Shown here piece by piece: positions 2,972 through 59,402 of a DNA stretch of 64,000 nt. The stretch covers positions 1 through 64,000 of the forward strand of contig JARFQY010000264.1 of NCBI GenBank assembly GCA_029287535.1, read 5' to 3'. Source of the stretch: Filomicrobium sp. Its GTDB lineage: Bacteria; Pseudomonadota; Alphaproteobacteria; Rhizobiales; Hyphomicrobiaceae. The translations under genes were made by a program, and so were the position numbers. Below the pieces are notes generated by a model. The model saw nothing but the letters and a program-made list of their open reading frames with translations, searched no databases and was not told where the DNA came from. The stretch's first letter is position 1, and every line of letters starts with the position of its first letter.

Positions 2972-3618
2972 CAAACCGTAGCTCTTACATAAAGCCCAAG
3001 CGCTCGGGCGACAAAGAGGGGCAACCGCGGGCATGGCAGCGGATGCTCTCCGGCCGGCGTCTTGATCTGCTGGATCCTTCCCCGCTTGACATTGAGGTCG
3101 AAGACATCGCGCACGGGCTTGCACGTGTGGCGCGCTGGAATGGTCAAACGGTTGGTGATCACGCGCTCTCGGTGGCGCAGCATGCGCTCATCGTGGAAGA
3201 TATCGCGGCGGAGCGGAACCCGGGCTGGCAAGACGACTGGCGGCTGGCAGCTTTGCTGCATGATTCAGCGGAGTACGTCGTAGGTGATCTGATCTCCCCA
3301 TTCAAAAACGCGATTGGTCTGGACTACAGAGCATTTGAGACGAGATTACTGGAAGCGATCCATCGACGTTTCGGTTTGCCAGGCTCGTTGCCGCCAGAAG
3401 TTTCCGCGGAAATAAAGAGTGCGGATCGGATCGCTGCTTATTTCGAAGCGACGGTGCTGGCAGGTTTTGAAGAACGCGAAGCCTTGGAGTTTTTTGGACC
3501 GCCCAACAAGCTCAGTGGTGAGAAGAGATCCGAGCTGTCAGCACTTAAAGCGTTGCCCGCGCCGGCAGCGCAACAGGCGTTTCTTTCTCGGTTCGGTGGG
3601 CTTTTCCACGACCAATGA
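2968..3618 (+). CDS. HD-domain hydrolase, YfbR-like
   Basis: 216-aa predicted metal-dependent phosphohydrolase. The HD signature is visible as GDHALSVAQH followed by LLHDSAEYVVGD, and a later KSADR provides the last acidic ligand. The size and motif arrangement fit the YfbR/HDDC2 group, whose characterised members dephosphorylate deoxynucleoside monophosphates. That substrate is inferred from the family only. It is the third gene of the ygfZ-tag-HD overlap chain (ATGA with tag). No transmembrane segment is seen. Confidence 0.75.
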   Translation: MTNRSSYIKPKRSGDKEGQPRAWQRMLSGRRLDLLDPSPLDIEVEDIAHGLARVARWNGQTVGDHALSVAQHALIVEDIAAERNPGWQDDWRLAALLHDSAEYVVGDLISPFKNAIGLDYRAFETRLLEAIHRRFGLPGSLPPEVSAEIKSADRIAAYFEATVLAGFEEREALEFFGPPNKLSGEKRSELSALKALPAPAAQQAFLSRFGGLFHDQ

Positions 3619-57556: not shown

Positions 57557-57630
57557 GGCCACGTGGCGGAGTGGTGACGCAGCGGACTGCAAATCCGTAT
57601 ACGCCGGTTCGATTCCGGCCGTGGCCTCCA
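57557..57630 (+). tRNA. tRNA-Cys (GCA)
   Basis: Acceptor GGCCACG pairs with CGTGGCC, discriminator U and an encoded CCA. The anticodon loop CTGCAAA gives GCA; the T-arm GGTTCGATTCC is canonical. Its last 17 bases recur at 59080-59096. Confidence 0.95.
57614..57630 (+). repeat. Direct repeat, tRNA-Cys 3' end (left att candidate)
   Basis: 17 bases (starting TCCGGCCG, ending CCTCCA) are the 3' end of tRNA-Cys, identical to 59080-59096. Flanking bases differ, so the match ends sharply. Span includes one upstream T. Confidence 0.85.
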
Positions 57631-57933
57631 GCCTGACCACATAGCTGATTGTTTTCAGCTTCTTAAGCAGAAGTGGGGCGCGCTCTGCGGGAACGCGAGA
57701 CACAATTCTGTTCTGTGCTCAGTGCGGCTGCAGAATCTTATTTGCGGCAATTCGAAAACCCTCAATCGCGCGCTTAGAAGTGAAGGGGCCGAAGCCCGAA
57801 TAGAAAGGGCGGCTCGAAAGGCGTGTGCACGTCCCTTTGTCAGTGATATCGTTCCATCACAATCGAAGAGCGAAGGAGGTCGCTGCCGACAGAGAGCAGG
57901 CGGCGCAATTCGCCGTTTGTTGGGTAACCGCGA

Positions 57934-58926
57934 ATGAAAAATGCCGATGGCAAAACGGATGTCATTGACGATGTCAGCCTTCTGGGACCGGGGCCTTCGG
58001 ACCTTGTCAAACTCAGGCTGAATGATCCGAACGCATACAACAAAGTCTCTGAGTGGGAGTTCGATTTCCGACAGATTGGCGCTGGCCCACCAGACGTCTG
58101 TATGATTCTCCGAAAGGGAAGGTCGGTCGAGATCAACCATGCGATTTATTCGCCCGAATGCCATCAGGTGGGGATGGTCCCACCGGAGACCATCAACTTG
58201 ATCGTGATGATCACCCCGACCATGAAGACCTGGCGAGGCATTGAGCTTGATAAGCCTTGCCTCCTCAGTTGTGGTCCCGAACAAGAGTTCGAGGGTGTCA
58301 ACACGCCGAACTCGCGAGAGATCAACTTTTCGGTTTCGAAACATCGGCTCTTCGAGCTTGCCGACTGCCTTGGACTTGATGTCCCCCGAGACATCCTGCG
58401 CTCAGCGCCCGTGTGGGTAACACACAATCCTTCGAGGCTGAATGCGATCATCCAAAGGGCGTCCTATTTCGTGGCACCTCCGGCGGTCCACATGACCGGG
58501 GTCGATGAGGAAGACCTCCTAAGAGATCTGCTCATTGCCCTCAACGATGCGCGGGAACAGGACGATCGAAGCAGTTTGCGGATACGGTCACCAGCTGTCG
58601 AAAAGGCCCTTGCATGCATGGAGGACTGCGCTGACGAAGCCATGCCGATCAGCAAGATTTGCTCTGAGATTGGGGTTTCATGGCGCTCTCTCGATCGCGC
58701 CTTCCTGGAGCGTTTTGGCATAGGACCGAAGGCCTACCAGACGCGATTGCGAATGAGCCGAGCGCGTTCGGAGATTATGGGGAAGGGTGCAGACTGTCTG
58801 GTCTCGGATGTGGCGAACAAGTGGGGCTTTTGGCATATGGGCAAGTTCGCCCAAGACTACAAAACTCTGTTTGGCGAACTCCCGTCCGAAACGCGGGGGC
58901 GGCGGCCGTTCCTCTTTGCGGAGTGA
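57934..58926 (+). CDS. AraC-family transcriptional regulator
   Basis: 330 aa. The C-terminal 100 residues have the double helix-turn-helix of AraC/XylS: ALACMEDCADEAMPISKICSEIGVSWRSLDRAFLERFGIGPKAYQTRLRMSRARSEI and VSDVANKWGFWHMGKFAQDYKTLFGELPSE. The N-terminal 200 residues are a sensor-like region that I do not recognise. The start is ATG 57934. It is the sole recognisable gene within the tRNA-Cys-bounded element, with noticeable use of AGA/AGG and CGA arginine codons, which fits foreign origin. Confidence 0.88.
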   Translation: MKNADGKTDVIDDVSLLGPGPSDLVKLRLNDPNAYNKVSEWEFDFRQIGAGPPDVCMILRKGRSVEINHAIYSPECHQVGMVPPETINLIVMITPTMKTWRGIELDKPCLLSCGPEQEFEGVNTPNSREINFSVSKHRLFELADCLGLDVPRDILRSAPVWVTHNPSRLNAIIQRASYFVAPPAVHMTGVDEEDLLRDLLIALNDAREQDDRSSLRIRSPAVEKALACMEDCADEAMPISKICSEIGVSWRSLDRAFLERFGIGPKAYQTRLRMSRARSEIMGKGADCLVSDVANKWGFWHMGKFAQDYKTLFGELPSETRGRRPFLFAE

Positions 58927-59292
58927 AGACCATTGGAAAAACGCGCGCGCGACCAAAGGTTGCGACTGTCGGTCTGGCTCAACAATAAGTCGGACACGTT
59001 TCTCTGGAAATCTCGCGAAAACCGCGGTGGTTTGGAGGTACGCTTTTCGCCAAGTCATTGGTATCAGCAACTTAGGTCGTCCGGCCGTGGCCTCCAAAGA
59101 CTTGCGCGGCGCCTTGCGATGTTGCGGTTCCCGGGCTGGCGCACTTGTTTTGCCGGCGCGAACGGGCGCTTGTGAATAGGGCTTCAACTTGCCGGCTCAT
59201 TCTGCTATCAAGCGCGCCTTGGCCGTAAACGAGGCAGTTTGGCGGCGTCAGCAAAGGCGCAAGGCTAGGTTTCTGCCTGCGGCGTTTGGACA
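58927..59292. other. Gap between AraC gene and tRNA-Asn
   Basis: Contains the right repeat (59080-59096) and otherwise nothing I can support. A TTG-start ORF at 58933-59175 runs through the repeat and has poor composition, so it is not called. Confidence 0.5.
59080..59096 (+). repeat. Direct repeat of tRNA-Cys 3' end (right att candidate)
   Basis: 17-base exact copy of the tRNA-Cys 3' end in the same orientation, without the rest of the tRNA. It marks the right border of the element. Confidence 0.85.
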
Positions 59293-59367
59293 TTCCGTGG
59301 TAGCTCAGCGGTAGAGCATCCGACTGTTAATCGGACGGTCGTAGGTTCGAATCCTACCCACGGAGCC
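59293..59367 (+). tRNA. tRNA-Asn (GTT)
   Basis: Acceptor TCCGTGG pairs with CCACGGA, discriminator G and encoded CCA. The anticodon loop CTGTTAA gives GTT; D-arm AGCTCAGCGGTAGAGC and T-arm GGTTCGAATCC are canonical. Confidence 0.96.
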
Positions 59368-59402
59368 ACTTTTCATGAAATCGTGTTGGCGGATGGCCGC
59401 AT

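Follow-up and report, generated by a model that had tools for sequence, protein, structure and literature searches.

The systems closest to the locus examined here are already described. A cis-mobilizable element (CIME) is a decayed ICE or IME that has kept attL and attR and has lost its integration and transfer genes (PMC5704250). Islander, which describes a T-stem class of attachment sites in tRNA genes, rejects candidates that are without an integrase or shorter than 2 kb (PMC4383910). In Sinorhizobium meliloti, integration is reported to have a hot spot at the tRNA-Asn gene numbered 030, which comes after tRNA-Cys 029 (PMC11476347). How, then, does a 1466-bp segment that lies between a tRNA-Cys and a tRNA-Asn gene, and whose sole substantial gene encodes an AraC-family regulator, compare with these? 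We examined it in a 64-kb window (the whole stretch of DNA that was analysed) from a 4.5-Mb draft genome in 379 contigs.

The direct repeat and the empty site

The insertion target, tRNA-Cys (GCA), is intact and has an encoded CCA (57557–57630, + strand; ARAGORN; 69.2 bits with the Rfam tRNA model). Its last 17 bases (57614–57630, + strand) recur exactly, in direct orientation and on the downstream side, at 59080–59096 (+ strand), as a displaced tRNA-Cys 3' end. The repeat, TCCGGCCGTGGCCTCCA, comprises, as read off the sequence, the last base of the T-loop, the 3' strand of the T-stem, the 3' strand of the acceptor stem, the discriminator T and CCA. On the right lies tRNA-Asn (GTT; 59294–59368, + strand; ARAGORN), which has the same position in those relatives whose site is empty.

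Could the repeat be a coincidence? By an arithmetic estimate the probability of an exact 17-mer match is about 1e-5. Allowing up to three mismatches, we found no third match in the 64-kb window, where shuffled sequences average 0.39 matches. In the whole genome there are only these two exact copies, and the two further matches with two mismatches stand at the same level as a reversed-pattern control. Uniqueness across the genome, together with the comparison with shuffles, rules out a chance origin. The first-pass annotation had reported this exact direct recurrence and judged it very unlikely by chance; both statements hold, and the 17-mer is not widespread in the genome.

What does the locus look like when unoccupied? 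In four genomes of the same genus (G001, G005, G007 and G008), tRNA-Cys is followed after 163–246 bp by tRNA-Asn, and a similarly short adjacency is seen in several other genera of the family. The 1466 bp from 57631 to 59096 (+ strand) are missing from this spacer in all four. Excising them in silico leaves a spacer of 197 bp (59097–59293, + strand), which is of ordinary length and is assigned to the ancestral spacer by alignment with the relatives. Within it a block at about 59173–59222 (GGGCTTCAACTT..CTGCTATCAAGCGCGCCTTG), just upstream of tRNA-Asn, is kept in G001, G005, G008 and G004 and partly in G007; it is probably the tRNA-Asn promoter. This conserved block survives beyond the distal repeat, on its right-hand side, and 57631–59096 is therefore an insertion. 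The empty sites have no repeat of the occupied type, the tRNA 3' end recurring downstream over 10 bp at best. In G004 the assembly breaks exactly at the CCA end of tRNA-Cys (contigs C181 and C158; L100 and L099), and the other contig has its start 19 bp within the tRNA end, which would fit an occupied or mixed site.

One might suppose instead that the locus carried the AraC gene ancestrally, that the relatives lost it and that the 17-mer is coincidental. The sample of the genus gives this idea some room, for it consists of eight genomes, two of which (G002 and G006) are without a usable tRNA-Cys locus. However, the spacer is short in four same-genus genomes and in several other genera, the gene hardly occurs in the order or the class, and a 17-mer exactly at the boundary is so rare by chance that we regard an ancestral AraC gene as very improbable indeed.

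At 55.6% the GC content of the insert is lower than that of the window (59.3%), by about 2 sd. Its codon usage is only mildly atypical, fifth lowest among 39 ORFs, a signal too weak to serve as proof of foreign origin. Rfam found no structured RNA in the insert apart from the two flanking tRNAs, and promoter and terminator consensus searches gave nothing exceeding shuffles. The first-pass annotation had proposed to look for an empty site in relatives, for a deviating GC content and for codon bias: the first two were found, the third is present in so mild a form that it proves nothing about foreignness, and the four empty sites stand against a clade-wide occupation of the tRNA by this AraC gene.

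A recurrent integration site and a missing integrase

Do related genomes carry larger elements at the same tRNA, as was suggested when the locus was first annotated? They do: the tRNA-Cys site is a hotspot throughout the family, occupied by islands of 2.4–24 kb, most of them with tyrosine integrases. Among 103 family genomes searched, several show tRNA-Cys followed by a distant partial copy. Exact suffix repeats of 48, 46, 44 and 40 bp occur in G023, G031, G027 and G081, respectively, at distances of 15.7, 16.1, 12.4 and 2.4 kb downstream. The islands of G023, G031, G027, G115, G011 and G095 have tyrosine integrases inside or alongside them, and the island integrases at tRNA-Cys fall into at least three sequence groups. 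In G003, foreign-looking genes lie downstream of tRNA-Cys.

Two further loci deserve mention. The unit at tRNA-Cys in G081 (L109, 5429–7818) is 2.4 kb long, is bounded by its exact 40-bp repeats and gave no integrase match. In G006 (L103), two decayed tRNA-Asn 3' fragments (258–305 and 3533–3558) lie about 3.2 kb apart, upstream of an RluB-type gene, with ORFs between them that by eye read as glycosyltransferase-like and carbamoyltransferase-like. The fragments can be read as old tandem insertions at tRNA-Asn, and the neighbouring tRNA-Asn is thus used as an integration site too.

In the window element itself there is no counterpart to the relatives' integrases. A genome-wide PF00589 search gave no match on this contig. 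Within the insert, tblastn with 17 integrases gave nothing credible, Pfam and PHROGs likewise found no integrase or remnant of one, no transfer genes were detected by these three approaches, and no excisionase or other mobility remnant was found. The initial description of one AraC-family gene between the repeats and no integrase is thus borne out. We considered whether a cognate integrase might lie elsewhere in the genome. The genome's non-Xer integrases resemble the relatives' tRNA-Cys integrases at no more than about 30% identity along part of the length, or in a short fragment, and this lack of close likeness rules that candidate out.

Might the insertion have been made by no integrase at all? 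Illegitimate recombination or a template switch could have placed AraC DNA together with a tRNA fragment at the hotspot, and the absence of a recombinase and the shortness of the repeat are in keeping with this. On the other hand, the repeat runs from the border of T-loop and T-stem precisely to CCA, like the T-stem class of Islander (PMC4383910), and the relatives' integrases use the tRNA-Cys site. We consider an integrase-free insertion improbable.

The regulator, its relatives and a second copy

The regulator (57934–58926, + strand; 330 aa) was recognized by the Pfam family HTH_18 (E 7.5e-18) and further placed by a structure model, gene neighbourhoods and a tree. Its AlphaFold model is confident (mean pLDDT 80.8) and comprises two domains, predicted to be a beta-rich, cupin-like N-terminal domain and a double HTH. 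Foldseek with this model returned AraC-family structures, the best match lying over the HTH domain. Full-length relatives are scarce: one in a Rhizobiales MAG (37% identity), one in a Rubricoccaceae MAG (34%) and two on Ruegeria plasmids (31–36%; WP_172978549.1 and WP_117873755.1). Only two genomes of the order exceed 30% over the full length (32–37%), one of them being that same Rhizobiales MAG, and no homologue was found at E 1e-30 in the remaining class-sample genomes. Peptide patterns found no copy in viral contigs, and the likeness of phage matches is mostly limited to the HTH domain.

In a tree of 39 proteins the window AraC falls in a clade of seven members (support 99/97), the loci of which span Alphaproteobacteria and Rhodothermota (L093, L094, L127, L146, L149 and L150). 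A divergently transcribed sulfatase gene adjoins all six of the other members, with a small gene in between on the Ruegeria plasmids; more distant AraC relatives are mostly without a sulfatase neighbour. Upstream of the window AraC, tRNA-Cys and pcm stand in place of the sulfatase. No sulfatase gene occurs within the 64-kb window, and a search for a sulfatase remnant in the insert yielded noise only. A member of the clade with no divergently adjacent sulfatase of its own, the window AraC is an orphan, because its six clade partners are all sulfatase-linked while tRNA-Cys and pcm precede it. In the literature searched, we found no described regulator of this sulfatase-divergent clade.

Is the orphan alone in its genome? 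Contig C77 (L115, 11794–12458) carries the start of a paralog 444 bp after tRNA-Val (CAC); the contig ends inside the gene, and there is no sulfatase upstream. The two proteins are 54–60% identical over some 45 N-terminal residues, and the DNA is 72% identical over 216 bp that include about 70 bp of leader and the first codons. The non-coding leader of the window gene, 57631–57933 (+ strand), takes part in this match with its last ~70 bp and yielded no sulfatase or integrase remnant. The order is again tRNA then AraC, and outside the AraC start region the copies differ. Upstream of tRNA-Val the contig is syntenic with same-genus genomes and downstream the flanks have nothing in common, so that tRNA-Val too has the look of an integration site. 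A search for another tRNA-Val repeat found none, and the distal end is not assembled, the contig ending first. By a rough estimate, a given gene would lie this close to a tRNA by chance in about 1% of cases. The paralog is thus a further orphaned regulator of this type beside a tRNA gene.

These observations bear on the main rival to the reading that we prefer, that of a remnant of a larger island. The element could be a passenger or satellite with no integrase of its own: a compact cassette of 1.5 kb, made up of the regulator and an att site, that the integrases of other islands insert in trans at tRNA-Cys and, in a related form, at tRNA-Val. The paralog with its identical tRNA-then-AraC order speaks for it, as does the integrase-free 2.4-kb element of G081, which sits between 40-bp repeats at tRNA-Cys as well. 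However, the two copies are unalike outside the AraC start and the tRNA-Val copy has shown no second repeat, none of the genome's integrases resembles the relatives' tRNA-Cys integrases, and viral contigs contain no copy by peptide patterns. We rate the passenger as unlikely, the most credible of the alternatives all the same.

On what might an orphan act? At least eight DUF3604 genes of near-full length occur in the genome, several as tandem pairs (contigs C314, C128, C273, C319 and C134; L197–L201), and full-length DUF3604 is found in none of the same-genus genomes G001, G004, G007 and G008. Sulfatase genes lie elsewhere in the genome, on contigs C102, C203, C206 and C236. From the neighbourhoods of its relatives, the window AraC would be expected to control sulfatase genes, and regulation in trans of the genome's sulfatase and DUF3604 genes is plausible. 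The first-pass suggestion that the element may tie a foreign regulator to a host regulon thereby takes a more specific form. Searches for 12-mers or motifs common to the AraC leader and the regions upstream of DUF3604 or sulfatase genes returned only isolated words at chance level. On contig C203 (L121, 34–2232 and 6458–7039), a sulfatase 58% identical to that of Ruegeria has a divergent short ORF that resembles a truncated AraC N-terminus and is similar to the beginning of a further AraC on that contig; it is possibly a case of gene decay.

A bolder extension would combine these elements. Tiny elements that lack an integrase, each with an orphan AraC of the sulfatase type, may form a family that moves between tRNA-Cys and tRNA-Val by means of other islands' integrases; the regulator would then spread apart from its operon and rewire resident sulfatase and DUF3604 genes. 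We regard this as speculative, and the odds as heavily against it.

Origin and comparison with known systems

We conclude that 57631–59096 is best explained as a CIME-like deletion remnant of an integrase-borne island at the tRNA-Cys 3' end (probability about 0.58). An integrase-bearing island would have entered tRNA-Cys at its 3' end, a site hit repeatedly in this Hyphomicrobiales family, rebuilding the tRNA end and displacing the 17-bp copy to the far side. A later deletion would have removed the integrase and most of the cargo, presumably including the divergent sulfatase gene, and left the tRNA-proximal AraC between att-like repeats. The orphan may still act in trans on sulfatase and DUF3604 genes elsewhere. 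That a sulfatase partner is missing here follows from the nearest AraC relatives, which are all sulfatase-divergent and group with the window protein in a single clade; the sporadic occurrence of the gene, hardly found in the order and class samples, also counts for a remnant.

Several points count against it, among them the only mildly atypical codon usage and the draft state of the genome. Independent random deletions would less readily leave a paralog at a second tRNA, and with no mobility remnant nothing is left to prove that an integrase made the insertion or that the element was formerly larger. We infer a tyrosine integrase and a once larger element, and since the 17-bp repeat is shorter than the relatives' 40–48 bp, an integrase of a different class must be assumed. 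Searches of the order, the class and viral contigs found no ancestor island with this AraC. Of the first-pass reading, a deleted island or a satellite that borrowed an integrase, the insertion at the tRNA-Cys 3' end stands, upheld by the empty sites, the larger islands in the family and the lower GC; of the two origins the deleted island is the likelier.

How does the element compare with the islands of its own family? Those of G023, G031, G027, G115 and G081 share its target tRNA and spacer. They differ in size (12–24 kb, and 2.4 kb in G081), in repeats that, where measured, are 40–48 bp long and reach the anticodon arm, and in the presence of an integrase (none was found in G081); they have no DNA in common with the insert. 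The sulfatase-divergent AraCs of the Ruegeria plasmids and of the Rhizobiales and Rubricoccaceae MAGs, in the same clade at 31–37% identity, share the HTH domain and an alignable N-terminal domain with the window AraC. Unlike them, it stands alone between tRNA genes. This suggests that transcription factors can be stranded beside tRNA genes, away from their operon of origin. Given a second orphan at another tRNA and at least eight DUF3604 genes, action in trans by the orphaned regulator becomes a testable question.

With a CIME the element shares att-like direct repeats at a tRNA 3' end, the 17-bp copies being putative attL and attR, and a content of cargo only with no integrase. It differs in being only 1.47 kb long, with one gene and no sign of a conjugation origin. 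Like the islands of Islander it consists of an intact tRNA, an insert and a displaced 3' tRNA fragment in direct orientation, and its empty site is preserved in relatives; unlike them it has no integrase gene within or overlapping it and, at 1466 bp, falls below the 2-kb cut-off. Objects of this kind are filtered out of Islander by these two requirements. The element is genuine yet rather unremarkable, something that a mobile element left behind or carried along, and of an already known type; more interesting are the orphan status of its sulfatase-linked regulator and the second tRNA-associated copy. It offers a clear example of a tRNA-bounded insertion that a standard island catalogue passes over because of its small size and scant gene content.
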